A DNA stretch of 64,000 bases from NCBI RefSeq assembly GCF_019083995.1, contig NZ_JAHRCU010000010.1, positions 62,001 through 126,000 on the forward strand, written 5' to 3'. Positions 1 to 60,697 of this stretch are shown one piece after another; positions within the stretch are counted from its first letter, which is position 1; every line of letters starts with the position of its first letter. Position numbers and translations under genes: made by a program. This stretch comes from Roseococcus sp. SDR (GTDB lineage Bacteria > Pseudomonadota > Alphaproteobacteria > Acetobacterales > Acetobacteraceae). The notes under the pieces were generated by a model. The model was not told where the DNA came from. It was given only the letters and a program-made list of their open reading frames with translations, and made no database searches.

Positions 1-497
1 AAGGCGGCCAGCGTCTTGGCGATCTCGGTCTTGTTCTCGACCGAGAAGGAATGCATGTAGTCGTACTTGTCCTTCATCTCCTTGTACTTCAGGAAGGCCG
101 TGTATTCGATTTCCGGCATCCCGATGGTATCGAGAAGATGGCTGTAGGCGGCGATGTGGATCGTCTCGGTGTTGCTGAACGCCGACATCATCATCAGCAC
201 TTCGGTCGGCTTGAAGACCTGGCTGTACTGCTTCATGTAGCAGTTGTTCACCTCGACATCCGCCTGGGTGAAGAAGCGGAAGATCTGCGTGAGCAGGTTC
301 TTCTCACCGGGGGTGAGGTTCTTCTGCCAGTCCTTCACGTCATCGGCGAGCGGCACCTCCTCCGGCAGCCAATGGATGCGCTGCTGCTGCAGCCAGGCCT
401 CATAGGCCCAAGGGTAGCGGAAGGGCTTGTAGACCGGGTTGGAGGTCAGGAGGTCGAACTTCACGGGAAGCTCGTCAATGGAAATGCCGTCAGCCAT
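1..497 (-). CDS. nrdB: Ribonucleotide reductase class I, beta subunit (partial, 3' end outside window)
   Basis: This is the radical-carrying small subunit of class I ribonucleotide reductase, which works with the NrdA encoded just upstream to make deoxyribonucleotides. About 165 N-terminal residues are visible; the gene runs off the left edge. The start is the ATG at 497, reading MADGISIDELPVKF. Conserved di-iron ligands are visible as D80 in FFTQADVE and E111/H114 in TETIHIAAY, and Y118 occupies the radical tyrosine position, so this is a tyrosyl-radical type. There is no N-terminal ATP-cone in this subunit. It follows nrdA in the same direction with a 219-base spacer filled by a pair of inverted hairpin repeats and an AT-rich core. 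Family assignment is firm; only the C-terminus is unseen. Confidence 0.95.
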   Translation of the reverse strand, partial: MADGISIDELPVKFDLLTSNPVYKPFRYPWAYEAWLQQQRIHWLPEEVPLADDVKDWQKNLTPGEKNLLTQIFRFFTQADVEVNNCYMKQYSQVFKPTEVLMMMSAFSNTETIHIAAYSHLLDTIGMPEIEYTAFLKYKEMKDKYDYMHSFSVENKTEIAKTLAA

Positions 498-527: not shown

Positions 528-580
528 CCAGGGGCTCTGCCCCTGGGACCCCGGCAGGAAACTTAGTTTCCTGCACCTTC
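528..580 (+). repeat. Two-hairpin intergenic repeat, copy 1
   Basis: Hairpin A (528-546) has AGGGGC paired with GCCCCT around TCT. Hairpin B (554-574) is GCAGGAAAC-TTA-GTTTCCTGC, followed by the tail CACCTTC. It forms a tail-to-tail inverted pair with the copy at 654-707; the 27 bases at 554-580 are exactly repeated in inverse at 654-680. The 73 bases between the two (581-653) are strikingly AT-rich for this genome and could carry a promoter for nrdB. Confidence 0.8.
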
Positions 581-653
581 TTTGTATTTAGATCGGCCCA
601 AAAACTCGCAAGGACCAAGAAAAAAATTTATTTGGCGAAATAATCAATCAGAT

Positions 654-707
654 GAAGGTGCAGGAAACTAAGTTTCCTGCTGGGGAGTGTGAGGGGCAAA
701 GCCCCTC
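654..707 (-). repeat. Two-hairpin intergenic repeat, copy 2
   Basis: Inverse partner of the copy at 528-580. Hairpin A is 691-707 (GAGGGGC-AAA-GCCCCTC), 9 bases beyond the nrdA stop codon, and hairpin B is 660-680. On the minus strand this could act as a terminator or attenuator between nrdA and nrdB, although there is no long U-tract. Confidence 0.8.
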
Positions 708-716
708 ATGACCCCT

Positions 717-2567
717 TTACTGGCACGCCAGACACTCTTCATAATTGGTCGAAGCCGGCGGCGGTGCTTGCAGTGGGAGCGTCGCCTCGTCCTTGTGGCG
801 CGTCATCACATCGCTCTGGCCCACCACCTTTTCGCTGACGGCGTCGGCGCGCTGGATGGAGAGGCTGCGGCAGTAGTAGAGCGACTTCACGCCCTTCTTC
901 CACGCCATCATGTGGATCTGGTGCAGGTCCCGCTTGTGGACGTTCGCGGGCAGGAAGAGGTTGAGCGACTGCGCCTGGCAGATGAAGGGCGTGCGGTCGG
1001 CCGCGTGTTCCACCACCCAGCGCTGGTCGAGCTCGAAGGCGGTCTTGAAGACGGCCTTTTCCTGCTCGGTCAGGAAGTCGAGGTGCTGGACCGAGCCCTT
1101 GTTGACCGTGATGGTCGTCCAGGTGTCGCTGTCGTCGCGGCCGTGCTGCTCCAGCACCTTCTTCAGGTAGGGGTTGCGCACGATGTAGGAGCCGGAGAGC
1201 GTCTTGTGGTTGTAGACATTCGCCGCGATCGGCTCGATGCCGGGCGAGGCGCCGCCGCAGATGATGGAGATGGACGCCGTCGGCGCGATCGCCATCTTGT
1301 TCGAGAAGCGCTCCATGAAGCCGTATTCGGCCGCATCCGGGCAGGGGCCGCGCTCTTCCGCCAGCAGGCGCGAGGCGTTGTCGGCCTGGGTGCGGATGTG
1401 GCGGAACATCTTCTTGTTCCAGACCTTCGCGATCACGCTCTCGAAGGGCACGCCCATGCCTTGCAGGAAGGAGTGGAAGCCCATCACGCCGAGGCCGACC
1501 GAACGCTCGCGCATCGCGGAATAGCGGGCCTTGGCCATGCTGTCCGGCGCGGTGTCGATGAAGTTCTGGATGACATTGTCCAGGAAGCGCATGACGTCCG
1601 TGATGAAGAGCGGATCGTCCTTCCACTCCATCCAGGTCTCGAGGTTCAGCGAGGAGAGGCAGCACACGGCCGTGCGCTGCTCGCCATGCTGGTCGATGCC
1701 GGTGGGCAGCGTGATCTCGGAGCAGAGGTTCGAGGTCTTCACCTCGAGGCCGGCGAGCTTGTGGTGCTCGGGGCGGGCGTTGTTCACATGGTCAGAGAAG
1801 ATGAAGTAGGGCTCGCCCGTCTCGATGCGGGCGGTGAGCATGCGGATCCAGAGCGAGCGGGCCGAGACGGTGCGCACGATGGCGCCGTCCTTGGGCGAGG
1901 TGAGCGCCCAGGCCTCGTCATTCTCGACGGCGCGCATGAACTTGTCCGACAGCAGGATGCCGTGGTGCAGGTTCAGCGCCTTGCGGTTCGGATCACCGCC
2001 GGTCGGGCGGCGGATCTCGATGAATTCCTCGATCTCCGGGTGGGAGACGGGCAGGTAGACGGCGGCCGAGCCGCGGCGCAGCGAGCCCTGGGAGATGGCG
2101 AGGGTGAGGCTGTCCATCACGCGGATGAAGGGCACGATGCCGGAGGTCTTGCCGTTCTGGCCGACCTTCTCGCCCAGCGAGCGGAGATTGCCCCAGTAGG
2201 AGCCGATGCCGCCGCCCTTCGACGCCAGCCAGACATTCTCGTTCCAGAGGCCCACGATGGAGTCGAGGCTGTCATTCGCCTCGTTCAGGAAGCAGCTGAT
2301 CGGCAGCCCGCGCGTCGTTCCCCCGTTCGACAGCACAGGCGTGGCCGGCATGAACCAGAGCTTGCTGATGTAGTCGTAGAGGCGCTGCGAATGGGCGGCG
2401 TCATCGCCATAGGCCGAGGCCACGCGGGCAAAGAGGTCCTGGTAGGACTCGCCCGGCAGGAGGTAGCGGTCATCGAGTGTCGCGCGGCCGAAATCCGTGA
2501 GCAGGGCGTCGCGGCTGCGATCCACCTGCACCTGGAAGTGGCCCTGAAGCTGAACGGCATCGAACAC
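717..2567 (-). CDS. nrdA: Ribonucleotide reductase class I, alpha (catalytic) subunit
   Basis: This is the catalytic subunit that reduces ribonucleoside diphosphates in the cytoplasm. The start is a GTG at 2567, preceded by a good AGGGGGAAG ribosome site. The protein has 616 residues, clearly shorter than the roughly 760 of the E. coli enzyme, because the N-terminal ATP-cone is absent. Catalytic features are intact: N280-L-C282-S-E284 (thiyl-radical site), C92 and C302/C303 as the redox cysteine pair, a YY pair at 564-565 for radical transfer, and the C-terminal C612/C615 shuttle in ECLACQ. It is transcribed leftward ahead of nrdB. The upstream region has a candidate pair of NrdR boxes. Without an ATP-cone in either visible subunit, overall activity control by dATP is probably missing or handled otherwise. 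Confidence 0.96.
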   Translation of the reverse strand: MFDAVQLQGHFQVQVDRSRDALLTDFGRATLDDRYLLPGESYQDLFARVASAYGDDAAHSQRLYDYISKLWFMPATPVLSNGGTTRGLPISCFLNEANDSLDSIVGLWNENVWLASKGGGIGSYWGNLRSLGEKVGQNGKTSGIVPFIRVMDSLTLAISQGSLRRGSAAVYLPVSHPEIEEFIEIRRPTGGDPNRKALNLHHGILLSDKFMRAVENDEAWALTSPKDGAIVRTVSARSLWIRMLTARIETGEPYFIFSDHVNNARPEHHKLAGLEVKTSNLCSEITLPTGIDQHGEQRTAVCCLSSLNLETWMEWKDDPLFITDVMRFLDNVIQNFIDTAPDSMAKARYSAMRERSVGLGVMGFHSFLQGMGVPFESVIAKVWNKKMFRHIRTQADNASRLLAEERGPCPDAAEYGFMERFSNKMAIAPTASISIICGGASPGIEPIAANVYNHKTLSGSYIVRNPYLKKVLEQHGRDDSDTWTTITVNKGSVQHLDFLTEQEKAVFKTAFELDQRWVVEHAADRTPFICQAQSLNLFLPANVHKRDLHQIHMMAWKKGVKSLYYCRSLSIQRADAVSEKVVGQSDVMTRHKDEATLPLQAPPPASTNYEECLACQ

Positions 2568-2880: not shown

Positions 2881-2928
2881 CCGAGGGGCCAGCCCCTCGG
2901 GCTCCCCGGCAGGGAACCAGTTCCCTGC
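2881..2928 (+). repeat. Two-hairpin intergenic repeat, copy 3
   Basis: Hairpin A is 2881-2900 (CCGAGGGGC-CA-GCCCCTCGG) and hairpin B is 2909-2928 (GCAGGGAAC-CA-GTTCCCTGC). It is the + oriented half of a tail-to-tail pair with copy 4 at 2949-3000. Compared with copy 1, both arms of hairpin B carry matching changes, so pairing is kept. Confidence 0.8.
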
Positions 2929-2948
2929 ACCCAAATCAGTTGGAAGAT

Positions 2949-3000
2949 CCAAGAAACTCGGTTTCTTGGTGGGTGAGCGCGAGAGGGCAAAGCCCTCTCG
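2949..3000 (-). repeat. Two-hairpin intergenic repeat, copy 4
   Basis: Hairpin A (2980-3000, CGAGAGGGC-AAA-GCCCTCTCG) starts directly after the stop codon of the leftward M20 peptidase gene, and hairpin B is 2949-2969 (CCAAGAAAC-TCG-GTTTCTTGG). Placed this way it is a plausible factor-independent-like terminator for that gene. Confidence 0.8.
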
Positions 3001-10803: not shown

Positions 10804-10858
10804 GGGGCTGCCCACCATGATGCGGGCGCGGCGTCAAGACCGGATGCGAAAAGGCGCC

Positions 10859-10922
10859 GCCCTCTCGCGCTCTCCCGCCAGGGTGAAAGCCTGCGTGGCT
10901 TTCACCAGTTTCCTGGACCTTC
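10859..10922 (+). repeat. Two-hairpin intergenic repeat, copy 5, truncated and overlapping the bla 3' end
   Basis: Hairpin A is reduced to its right half (GCCCTCTCGCGC at 10859-10870, matching copy 4). Hairpin B is GGTGAAAGCC (10882-10891) paired with GGCTTTCACC (10897-10906), with the flank CAGTTTCCTGGACCTTC like other copies. The beta-lactamase stop codon lies inside the hairpin B stem, so the repeat both ends the reading frame and probably terminates transcription. Confidence 0.7.
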
Positions 10923-47117: not shown

Positions 47118-47581
47118 GCTTCGACCCCCGCGAACACCGGATGGCGCCGCAGCGCTGGTTCGAGGATTTTACCCTGGGCGAGCAGTTCCGCCTGCCCAGC
47201 CGCACCATGACGGAGGCGATCTTCCTCGCCTTCCAGGCCGCCAGCGGCGACAACCACCCCGTCCACTACGACGTGGAGTTCTGCCGCGCGCGCGGCATGC
47301 CGCATATGCTGGCCCATGGCTTCCAGGTGCTGATCCAGACGGCGGCGGGTGCCGGGATGCTGCCCTTCCTGATCGAGGACAGTCTGAAGGGGTTTCTCGA
47401 ACAGTCCAGCCGCTTCCTGCATCCGGTCTATGTGGGGGACACGCTCTACGCCACGCTCACGGTGGATGAGCTGACGCCGGGCCGGACGACGGGCGTGCTG
47501 GGGCTGGCCTCCACCGTCCACAACCAGGCGGGCGTCCTCGTGATGGATGGCCGGCAGCGATACCTTCTTCGCAAGCGGTGA
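47114..47581 (+). CDS. MaoC-like hotdog-fold dehydratase
   Basis: A 155-residue enzyme of the R-specific enoyl-CoA hydratase family. The start is GTG 47114, overlapping the hyuB stop (GTGA); ATG 47141 is an alternative. The hydratase signature is visible as AASGDNHPVHYDVEFCRARG with the catalytic Asp and His, then MLAHGFQVLIQTAAGAG. In family members it hydrates or dehydrates an acyl-CoA or acyl chain. Being translationally coupled to hyuB, it likely acts on a product of the HyuAB reaction, followed by the dehydrogenases downstream. Confidence 0.88.
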   Translation: MSFDPREHRMAPQRWFEDFTLGEQFRLPSRTMTEAIFLAFQAASGDNHPVHYDVEFCRARGMPHMLAHGFQVLIQTAAGAGMLPFLIEDSLKGFLEQSSRFLHPVYVGDTLYATLTVDELTPGRTTGVLGLASTVHNQAGVLVMDGRQRYLLRKR

Positions 47582-47582
47582 T

Positions 47583-47637
47583 GCGAGAGGGGCTTTGCCC
47601 CCCTCGCGCTCCCCCCACCAGGAAACAGGTTTCCTGG
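47583..47637 (+). repeat. Two-hairpin intergenic repeat, copy 6
   Basis: Directly after the MaoC stop codon: hairpin A 47583-47607 (GCGAG-n-GGGGC-TTT-GCCCC-n-CTCGC) and hairpin B 47618-47637 (CCAGGAAAC-AG-GTTTCCTGG), with the tail ACCTTCAATTG. It is the + half of a tail-to-tail pair with copy 7. Confidence 0.8.
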
Positions 47638-47655
47638 ACCTTCAATTGACAGGGT

Positions 47656-47700
47656 GCAGGGAACTGGTTCCCTGCTGGGGGCTCGGGGGCAAAGCCCCCG
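47656..47700 (-). repeat. Two-hairpin intergenic repeat, copy 7
   Basis: Hairpin B is 47656-47675 (GCAGGGAAC-TG-GTTCCCTGC) and hairpin A is 47684-47700 (CGGGGGC-AAA-GCCCCCG). It is inverse to copy 6 with only 18 bases between the two B hairpins, and ends 23 bases before the next start codon. The pair may split the long operon into two transcripts. Confidence 0.8.
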
Positions 47701-47723
47701 ATTTCTCTTGAGGGAGGGTATCC

Positions 47724-58618: not shown

Positions 58619-60634
58619 ATGCCGAACCTGACAGCGGGGGCGCATCCGCACCCGCATGCAGGGCATGACGGTCAGGCGAACGATCCGCTGGACAGGGCGG
58701 TCGCCGCCGCCGCGCGCCACCTCCTCGCCCGCCAGCGGCCCGACGGCCATTGGGTCTTCGAACTCGAGGCGGATGCCACCATCCCCTCCGAATACCTGAT
58801 GCTGCATCACTTCTTCGGCCATGTTCAGCCGGAGAAGGAGGCGCGGATCGGCCGCTACCTCCGCCGCATCCAGGCCGAGCAGCGCGCGAACACGGGCGGC
58901 GGCTGGCCCCTCTTCCATGGCGGCCCGCTCGACATCTCCTGCTCGGTGAAGGCCTACCTGGCGCTCCGTCTGATCGGTGACGCGCCCGACGCCCCGCATA
59001 TGACCGAGGCGCGTGAGGCGATCCTCGCCGCCGGCGGGGCCGAGCGCAGCAATGTCTTCACCCGTGCGGCGCTGGCGCTGTTCGGCGCGGTGCCCTGGCG
59101 CGCCGTGCCGATGATGCCGCCTGAGATCATGCTGCTGCCGCGCTGGTTCCCCTTCCATGTCAGCAAGATCAGCTACTGGGCGCGCACCGTCCTCGTCCCG
59201 CTGACCGTCGTCATGGCCCGCCGCCCGGAAGCGCAGAACCCGCGTGGCGTCACCATCGACGAATTGTTCCGCACGCCGCCCGAGCAGGTGAAGGACTGGC
59301 CCGGCGGCGCCCACCAGGCCGAGCCCTGGGCCTCGCTCTTCAAGGCGCTGGATGGCGCGCTGCACCGCGCCCGCATGCTCTTCCCGCGCAATCACCGCGC
59401 CCGCGCCGAGGAGGCCTGCGAGCGCTTCGTGACCGAGCGCCTGAACGGCGAGGACGGGTTGGGCGCCATCTACCCCGCCATGGCCAATGCCGTCCTCATG
59501 TATCACTGCCTGGGTGTCGCGCAGGATGACCCGCGCATGCTCACCGCCTGGGCCGCCATCGAGAAGCTGGTCGAGGAACGTGCCGGCACGGACGAAACCT
59601 ACGTCCAGCCCTGCCTCTCGCCCGTCTGGGACACGGCGCTCGTCAGCCACGCCCTGCTGGAAGCGGGCGGCGAGGTGGAGCGCGAGGCCGTGGGCCGCGG
59701 CCTCAACTGGCTCCTCTCCAAGGAAATCCGCGACGTGCGCGGCGACTGGGCCTGGAAGCGCCCCGACCTCCAGCCCGGCGGCTGGGCCTTCCAGTACGAG
59801 AACGCGCACTACCCAGACGTGGATGACACCGCCGTGGTCGTGCTGGCGATGGACCGCTACCGCGCCGCCGCACCCACCGACACGGGCCTGGACGGCGCGA
59901 TCCAGCGTGCCACGGACTGGACGGTGGGCATGCAGTCGCGCGGCGGCGGCTGGGGCGCCTTCGACGCCGACAACACCTTCCACTACCTGAATCACATCCC
60001 CTTCGCCGACCATGGCGCGCTGCTCGACCCGCCGACGGCCGATGTCTCGGGCCGCTGCCTCGCCATGCTGGCGCAGCTGGGCCGCGGCGAGGACGCCGCT
60101 TCCAAGGCCGCCATCGAATACCTGCTGCGCGAGCAGGAGGCCGATGGCTCCTGGTATGGCCGCTGGGGCGTGAATTACATCTACGGCACCTGGTCGGCCG
60201 TCACCGCGCTGAACGCCGCCGGCCTGCCGCCCGAGCATGACGCGATGCGCCGCGCCGTCGCCTGGCTGCTCAAGACCCAGAACCCCGATGGCGGCTGGGG
60301 CGAGGATGGCATGAGCTACCCCGCCCGTGGCGGCACCCGCCCCGATCCGCGCCAGCCCGCCCCCTCCTCGGCCAGCCAGACCGCCTGGGGCATGCTGGCC
60401 CTGATGGCATGCGGCGAGGCCGGGCACGAGGCGGTCAGCCGCGCCGCCGCCTGGCTCATGCAGCACCAGAAGGAAGACGGCGACTGGCCGGAAGAGGACT
60501 ATACGGGCACCGGCTTCCCGCGCGTCTTCTACCTCCGCTACCACGGCTACCGGCGGATCTTTCCGCTCTGGGCGCTGGCGCGGCTGCGGAACCTGCGCGC
60601 GTCGAACACGCGCAGGGTCAGCTACGGACTTTGA
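58619..60634 (+). CDS. shc: Squalene-hopene cyclase
   Basis: Cyclises squalene to hopene, the core of hopanoids, at the inner membrane. The start is ATG 58619 (MPNLTAGAHP), giving 671 residues, close to the family norm of 630-720. The catalytic acid motif is D400-V-D-D403 in PDVDDTAVVVLAMD. Repeated QW motifs are evident (RQRPDGHW, EQEADGSWYGRWG, KTQNPDGGWGED, QKEDGDWPEED). It follows hpnA-hpnB in the same direction. A two-hairpin repeat lies directly after the stop, probably ending the transcript. Confidence 0.96.
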   Translation: MPNLTAGAHPHPHAGHDGQANDPLDRAVAAAARHLLARQRPDGHWVFELEADATIPSEYLMLHHFFGHVQPEKEARIGRYLRRIQAEQRANTGGGWPLFHGGPLDISCSVKAYLALRLIGDAPDAPHMTEAREAILAAGGAERSNVFTRAALALFGAVPWRAVPMMPPEIMLLPRWFPFHVSKISYWARTVLVPLTVVMARRPEAQNPRGVTIDELFRTPPEQVKDWPGGAHQAEPWASLFKALDGALHRARMLFPRNHRARAEEACERFVTERLNGEDGLGAIYPAMANAVLMYHCLGVAQDDPRMLTAWAAIEKLVEERAGTDETYVQPCLSPVWDTALVSHALLEAGGEVEREAVGRGLNWLLSKEIRDVRGDWAWKRPDLQPGGWAFQYENAHYPDVDDTAVVVLAMDRYRAAAPTDTGLDGAIQRATDWTVGMQSRGGGWGAFDADNTFHYLNHIPFADHGALLDPPTADVSGRCLAMLAQLGRGEDAASKAAIEYLLREQEADGSWYGRWGVNYIYGTWSAVTALNAAGLPPEHDAMRRAVAWLLKTQNPDGGWGEDGMSYPARGGTRPDPRQPAPSSASQTAWGMLALMACGEAGHEAVSRAAAWLMQHQKEDGDWPEEDYTGTGFPRVFYLRYHGYRRIFPLWALARLRNLRASNTRRVSYGL

Positions 60635-60639
60635 GAAAC

Positions 60640-60685
60640 CGAGGGGCTCCGCCCCTCGACCCCGGCAAGAACCTCAGGTTCTTGC
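60640..60685 (+). repeat. Two-hairpin intergenic repeat, copy 8
   Basis: Six bases after the shc stop: hairpin A 60640-60658 (CGAGGGGC-TCC-GCCCCTCG), spacer ACCCCG, and hairpin B 60665-60685 (GCAAGAACC-TCA-GGTTCTTGC). Here hairpin B has replaced GGAAAC by AAGAACC, with matching changes in the other arm. It is a single copy, without an inverse partner, 13 bases before the next start codon. Confidence 0.8.
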
Positions 60686-60697
60686 ATCTCCGACCGG

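Follow-up and report, generated by a model that had tools for sequence, protein, structure and literature searches.

What kind of element is the two-hairpin repeat that recurs along this stretch of DNA, and what keeps its arms matched while its sequence changes? The stretch, called here the window, is 64,000 nucleotides of the Roseococcus sp. SDR genome. The initial annotation had listed eight dispersed copies in it, each made of a GC-rich hairpin A, a linker, a hairpin B and a CACCTTC-like tail. Five window copies served to build a covariance model, which found seven of the eight again at 47-76 bits (E 4.8e-17 to 5.8e-10), and the copy at 10859-10922 at only 17.6 bits. Because five of these seven had built the model, they match by construction; the copies at 2881 and 47583 had no part in building it. 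The seven are clear two-hairpin units with the layout hairpin A, C-rich linker, hairpin B and short tail, and the copy at 10859 is damaged. The units and their neighbours in the window are the following.

3..497, minus strand: ribonucleotide reductase small chain, nrdB-like (PF00268, E 4e-34), truncated at the window end.
528..580, plus strand: unit 1 (75.9 bits; DNA fold -18.2 kcal/mol, z -5.6), with hairpin A at 528-546, linker or third strand A at 547-553, hairpin B at 554-574 and third strand B, ACCTTC, at 575-580.
654..707, minus strand: unit 2, tail to tail with unit 1 (73.4 bits; z -6.6).
717..2567, minus strand: ribonucleotide reductase large chain, nrdA-like (PF02867, E 2.9e-120).
2881..2935, plus strand: unit 3, third strands GCTCCCC (A) and ACCC (B) (47.4 bits, outside the model-building set; z -3.4).
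2943..3000, minus strand: unit 4, tail to tail with unit 3 (64.3 bits; z -6.4), with purine arm GAGAGGG, third strand CTCACCC, stem B CCAAGAAAC and tail ATCTTC.
10859..10922, plus strand: damaged unit with an extra hairpin within hairpin B (17.6 bits over 10849-10921).
47583..47642, plus strand: unit 6, beginning 2 nt past the stop codon at 47581 (51.4 bits, outside the model-building set).
47651..47701, minus strand: unit 7, tail to tail with unit 6 (67.7 bits; z -5.0).
60640..60691, plus strand: unit 8, single, beginning 6 nt past the stop codon at 60634 (65.9 bits; z -6.4 on 60640-60690), with hairpin A at 60640-60658, third strand at 60659-60663, hairpin B at 60665-60685 and tail ATCTCC at 60686-60691.

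Units 1 and 2 occupy the gap between the nrdA-like and nrdB-like genes, and the three tail-to-tail pairs first noticed in the window are real. Folded as isolated single-stranded DNA, six window copies gave -17.0 to -18.4 kcal/mol, with z from -3.4 to -6.6 against dinucleotide shuffles. The unit limits first proposed hold to within a few bases, several shifting once the tails are counted (e.g., 2943-3000 and 47651-47701). The string GGTGAAAGCC at 10859, which had been read as a further stem-B type, is no such type: hairpin B contains an additional hairpin here and keeps its CCAGG..CCTGG base.

The genome search that the initial annotation had proposed established a dispersed two-part family, with at least 80 full-length matches in the 5.0 Mb genome (62 contigs) among the best 150 of 1664 candidates scored. 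At E <= 0.1 these 150 included 102 matches, 80 of full length and 22 consisting of hairpin B alone on the opposite strand. The units, at least 80 in number, form 59 clusters: 38 hold a single unit and 21 hold two. Every one of these doubles has its units tail to tail; six are copies of one MITE, and the spacings of the 21 are 8-10 nt (11 doubles), 30 nt (7) or 75-85 nt (3). In other genomes, the 22 doubles found at 75 loci of named Acetobacteraceae, taken from the first 80 listed of 112 stretches, were all tail to tail as well. At four loci of other genera (L157, L158, L170, L177) the spacer between paired units is itself a long near-perfect inverted repeat with arms of about 20 to 60 bp, and forms with the units one large nested palindrome.

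That both arms of the stems change together was also borne out. On 137 distinct hits from 98 loci, covariation was found at 13 of 16 pairs, with 344 double-change cells against 7 one-side (G-U) cells among 2160, and a covariation score of 0.437 (0.165 shuffled) that none of 500 shuffles equalled. In this alignment, which was fitted to the covariance model and thus favours structure (150 of 151 hits aligned, most MITE loci left out), 98.4% of stem cells were paired, and the mismatches included 22 A.C and 7 G.T.

The tail had been described as CACCTTC-like throughout, but it varies with its own stem, and a reading of it as a constant CACCTTC tag was ruled out on that ground. A listing of 80 copies showed that each hairpin has its pyrimidine arm mirrored in what comes next, the linker in the case of A and the tail in the case of B. 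Every unit contains two modules, in each of which a purine arm, a short loop and a pyrimidine arm form a hairpin and a third strand, in the register of the purine arm, comes directly after it. Stem and tail partners include AGGAAAC/ACCTTC, AAGAACC/ATCTCC, AGGGAAC/ACCC, AAAGGAC/AATCC and GAGAGGG/CTCTCCC, and in relatives also GGGAGGG/CCCTCCC. Over 33 stem/tail types, drawn from 75 of 78 parsed copies (two of the 80 remained unparsed), the mutual information between stem and tail was highest along a single parallel diagonal (0.99, 0.85, 0.77, 0.40); here and below, the stem-tail statistics ignore kinship, and the copies are related. The same diagonal appeared when the set was enlarged to 191 distinct units (290 occurrences at 264 source loci), with 56 types for module B, where 9-nt stems were kept, and 125 for module A. 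The parser required perfect stems and CCC in the linker, and the latter demand accounts for part of the module-A agreement.

When each distinct stem was allowed one tail only, the parallel diagonal topped all others both in the own genome (n 18, 27) and in other genomes (n 22, 47) taken separately, and 0 of 1000 permutations reached it in either set. Its height was 0.12-0.21, against 0.05-0.10 for the best antiparallel diagonal; the near symmetry of the stems lifts some antiparallel diagonals above the permutations as well. A permutation test with free register on all units gave z 4.1 and 10.2 in the parallel direction, and since the antiparallel control was also raised (z 3.7 and 6.7), the fixed-register test replaced it as the main evidence. 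In the distant genomes described below the free-register values were 5.5 and, for the antiparallel control, 3.5. Watson-Crick pairing does not yield a parallel complement, nor should template switching. By triplex chemistry, the parallel register would be the geometry of a third strand lying in the major groove.

The faces that the third strand presents to the stem tell which kind of triplex is encoded. With stem and third strand in register, the partner of stem G is C in 228 of 230 cells of the own genome and in 453 of 465 cells of other genomes; the partner of stem A is T or A in 66 of 69 cells of the own genome and in 97 of 107 of the others. Module-A cells were entered in these counts only where their neighbours fit the purine code. 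The distant set was registered by placing its first GG on its first CC, which accounts for part of the G-to-C agreement of that set. Where the position is internal and its neighbours are strict, stem A faces T 56, A 25, C 3 and G 3 times, and stem G faces C in 392 of 395 cases. The code is looser without the neighbour rule, with A or T opposite stem A in 110 of 131 module-A and 71 of 89 module-B cells, and C opposite stem G in 575 of 599 module-A and 147 of 161 module-B cells. Triplet runs are short (mean 4.3-5.6 triplets), and they are longer by the purine than by the pyrimidine code and longer than in permuted sets (own means 5.56 and 4.72; permuted 3.82 and 2.59). Some module-A copies reach 6-7 strict triplets, and module-B runs are mostly of 4-5. 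For orientation, published searches for intrastrand triplexes took tracts of 6-15 nt, loops of 1-6 nt and one mismatch at 7 nt or more (PMC4666352, partial text). By the code, and by run lengths against permutations, one strand carries three consecutive tracts that obey triplet rules.

The pyrimidine motif accepts only T opposite A-T, whereas the purine motif, read on the complementary strand, accepts A or T (PMC4666352, partial text). On its complementary strand the present unit reads third strand, purine arm, pyrimidine arm, an order and composition that fit the class I purine-motif triplex code (G*GC, A*AT, T*AT). A pure pyrimidine-motif triplex was rejected as a worse fit, given that A is tolerated opposite A-T and that the purine-code runs are longer. 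As purine-motif intrastrand triplexes are reported not to form in RNA (PMC4666352, partial text), the constraint points to DNA.

From comparison of sequences, we consider it rather probable that what is preserved in these dispersed DNA repeats is a three-strand fold written in purine-motif triplex code, the triplex itself presumably forming in cells. At the level of sequence there is good support for the view that this code would be kept by selection, or else by a copying process dependent on it. The initial reading, of either selection on structure or mobile copying, is supported. Selection on RNA, also named at first, is less well supported, in view of the purine-motif DNA code, the lack of clear strand bias, and the few G-U changes and T-runs. 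Of the putative functions, a barrier acting on DNA where genes end, mobile spread, or the two together seem likeliest. In such a scheme the triplex would form on single-stranded or extruded DNA, the units would spread as non-autonomous elements, and copies kept between convergent or tandem genes would act as two-way DNA-level barriers at gene ends.

The location of the clusters bears on this scheme. Placed with our own codon-usage gene caller, the 59 own clusters, which include ten loci of one MITE, were 31 convergent, 27 tandem and 1 at a contig end, with none divergent and none inside a gene; without the ten MITE loci the counts were 23 convergent, 26 tandem and 0 divergent (n = 49). As background, 8 of the 29 intergenic gaps of at least 20 nt in the window are divergent, and make up 2543 of 4963 nt. 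At the 75 loci of other genomes, 77 clusters divided into 25 convergent, 39 tandem, 5 divergent, 8 at an edge and 0 inside. Orientation and distance to stop codons, two counts that the initial annotation had called for, came out uniform for the former, with all pairs tail to tail; for the latter, units lie behind stops, often 2-20 nt away in the own genome.

Such positions, often filling short convergent gaps or lying between tandem genes like nrdA and nrdB, would also suit an RNA-level element of the 3' end, in which transcribed hairpins terminate or protect mRNA, as proposed for REP, and the tail is incidental or forms a pyrimidine-motif RNA triplex. Stable hairpins with two-sided changes agree with this as well. 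We nevertheless hold it to be improbable, at perhaps one chance in a handful. A T-run of at least 4 follows hairpin B in 1 of 80 copies and lies beyond hairpin A, on the other strand, in 7 of 80, which rules out a U-run intrinsic terminator for nearly all copies. Single copies between tandem genes have no clear strand bias (24 sense, 16 antisense; 11/5 in the own genome and 13/11 elsewhere). Moreover, the third strand accepts A opposite A-T, which the pyrimidine motif bars, and G-U cells are few.

Sites shared with relatives show how the units change. The nrdA-nrdB gap was compared in 18 relatives (19 stretches). Two strong units are present in nine of them (G015, G005, G006, G013, G004, G003, G010, G014, G009), two weak units in G018 and G008, one unit in G011, G016, G002 and G020, and a 13.8-bit match only in G012; the contigs of G001 and G019 stop at or before the site. 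The hairpins persist in this gap and the spacer diverges. In the right-hand copy, module A occurs as AGGGG/ACCCC, GAGGGG/CTCCCC or GGGAGGG/CCCTCCC. At site 21, a whole triplet differs between G000 (G-C-C) and G019/G005 (A-T-T) with the same module-B stem, and at site 54 both arms show a flip of the two basal pairs. Whole modules are exchanged too, since G005 carries at site 46 a different stem together with its matching tail.

Occupancy of the sites also turns over. Among 18 of the 59 own sites compared in three relatives, the family is present in G015 at 10 and absent at 8, with one unit instead of two at site 32. Sites 21, 33 and 0 are empty in G015, and 33 and 0 in G019 as well; in the empty allele of site 0, two convergent stop codons abut. 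The window pair at 47583-47701 is absent at the orthologous site in G005, G019 and G015. For the pair at 2881-3000, 15 relative loci were found, 11 of them with the right flank, and the sole model match was a decayed one in G019 (26.5 bits). Another GC-rich hairpin (..TCTGGGGCC..GGCCCCAGCCGCCGGAGG..) was seen in relatives at a few 3' ends that bear a unit in the own genome, namely at L364 (site 31, G015), L380 (site 38, G005) and L143 (G014). It looks as if types of 3'-end hairpin were interchangeable.

All 21 genomes of the genus that were examined have at least one match, the number ranging from 1 to at least 99. At E <= 0.001, matches occur in 10 of 15 other genera of the family and in 0 of 24 genomes of other families in the class. 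The carriers among the matches listed are Roseococcus, Neoroseomonas, Rhodovarius, Rubritepida, Siccirubricoccus, Roseomonas and Acidisphaera. Outside the Acetobacteraceae, matches were obtained in two Clostridia MAGs (15 and 49), in Desulfovibrio (27) and in an unplaced MAG (35), single MAGs being open to binning errors; the search lay outside viral, phage, plasmid, E. coli and metagenome collections. Among one of the Clostridia (G061) and 39 relatives, 16 have matches, six of these with 40-84. The distant modules keep the rule, for example GCAGGAGGC/ACCTCC, CTTAAGGGGC/AATCCCC and CCAAGGGC/AACCC. G076, a relative of G061, has dozens of matches of equal score (56.7 bits), several at contig starts, which looks like a recent burst.

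These observations also bear on a simpler account, namely that the repeats are plain REP-like hairpins and that stem and tail are coupled only through block copying or conversion of related copies. Block copying is real, as the whole exchange of stem-plus-tail types at shared sites (site 46 in G005) indicates, and our stem-tail statistics ignore the tree. Against it, the parallel diagonal survives, within the own genome and outside it, when each distinct stem is given a single tail; the rule is obeyed by new stems from Clostridia and Desulfovibrio; and one triplet alone has changed at site 21. We give this account a small chance, roughly that of one in eight. It is very unlikely that the units are protein binding sites, read on DNA in folded or duplex form and requiring mirror symmetry by coincidence: the fixed register and the strong G-to-C rule would agree with it, but many different stems, together with joint change of three strands, are not expected of such a site. 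REPINs moved by a RAYT (Y1_Tnp) transposase, which the short paired palindromes and a copy number that varies within the genus between 1 and at least 99 might recall, are largely refuted and were rejected, the Y1_Tnp domain being found neither in the own genome (0 matches, control genomes positive) nor in 20 of 21 genus genomes, G016 with the domain having one model match only, and no GTAG or CGTC tag being seen by eye at the unit ends of 80 copies.

The purine-motif triplex reading may extend further. It is conceivable, if doubtful as yet, that a class of DNA elements defined by this code, and not by any fixed sequence, exists in at least three distant bacterial lineages and is both spread and kept by machinery acting on triplex-folded single-stranded DNA; the covariation would then testify, on evolutionary grounds, to the formation and importance of such triplexes in living bacteria. 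Whether DNA triplexes form in cells, and whether they are important there, is an old open question. Diverse stems with a rule-following third strand, at shared sites and in distant bacteria, bring it within reach of comparative genomics, and the family supplies natural variants for bench work. With three-strand covariation found behind genes, the importance of triple-helical DNA to living bacteria becomes a testable question.

Intrastrand triplex repeats as a general kind are already known. The closest likeness is to the BoxC/PIT/TM_ECO repeats, which are dispersed, intergenic and G/C-rich, with a predicted purine-motif intrastrand triplex and sometimes in inverted pairs (PMC4666352, partial text; Hoyne et al., 2000, 2002, cited therein). 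They occur in E. coli and other Proteobacteria, with five inverted pairs in MG1655, and PIT elements had in E. coli no promoter or terminator activity and no in vivo effect (PMC4666352, partial text). This speaks against the explanation preferred here. TM_ECO is a single, nearly invariant class II motif with 9-nt stems, whereas the present units have the class I order on the complementary strand, diverse short stems, two modules and a covarying third strand. Because its copies are described as extraordinarily identical, TM_ECO can show little covariation, and the words "covari" and "compensat" are absent from the text of that paper (PMC4666352, partial text). The TM_ECO/BoxC pattern CCCTCNCCC-N3-6-GGGNGAGGG-N3-GGGNGAGGG had 0 exact matches on either strand of the own genome. 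REP GTAG/CGTC dimers are alike in being short palindromes, often head to head or tail to tail, with typical spacings and as homo- or heterodimers; CGTC repeats are reported to be missing in Acetobacteraceae (PMC3733652, partial text). The present units differ from them by the lack of a visible GTAG/CGTC tag and of RAYT in nearly all genus genomes, and by their third strand. H-DNA shares mirror-symmetric purine/pyrimidine tracts; here the purine arm is also present in cis as an inverted repeat, so that one strand can make the whole triplex. The paired arrangement had been thought undescribed. Inverted pairs are in fact known from TM_ECO/BoxC and REP dimers, and what was not found in the open-licence PMC literature searched is a two-module, covarying, tail-to-tail triplex family at 3' ends.

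An Rfam search of the window returned at gathering score three tRNA matches only. Sub-threshold matches to MIR530 (45.8 of 85 bits, at L057 and L058, two loci that overlap each other) and to F6, Hrs13, mir-616, snoRNA and IRES models were taken as chance. The 5' half of RF02937, the Clostridiales-2 RNA (GGGggUGcaGgGGg..CCcCugCC), resembles a module B and tail read in reverse complement. The best RF02937 score at 20 loci of three distant genomes (L301, L309 and L314 among them) was 30.0 bits, at a Desulfovibrio locus and below the gathering score of 58.6. This family may be worth a second look as a DNA structure.

Finally, some units travel within a larger element. A MITE of 190-208 bp with a tail-to-tail pair and terminal repeat GGCTGCTGAAAAA occupies ten loci of the own genome (L033, L034, L036, L037, L043, L047, L075, L076, L078, L080), with exact 4-bp flanking duplications, as judged by eye, at 5 of 9 copies. 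All 13 exact matches of the terminal repeat fall within those ten loci; as it has no other exact copy in the own genome, no autonomous partner of the MITE was found there. An extra palindrome (about GTGAAAACCTGCNTGGTTTTCAC) inside hairpin B was observed in the window at 10859-10922 and at L037, L047, L078, L081 and L066, and an insert resembling that at 10859 is present at C13:30429, at C19:6704 and in three MITE copies. It looks as if a second small element enters the loop.
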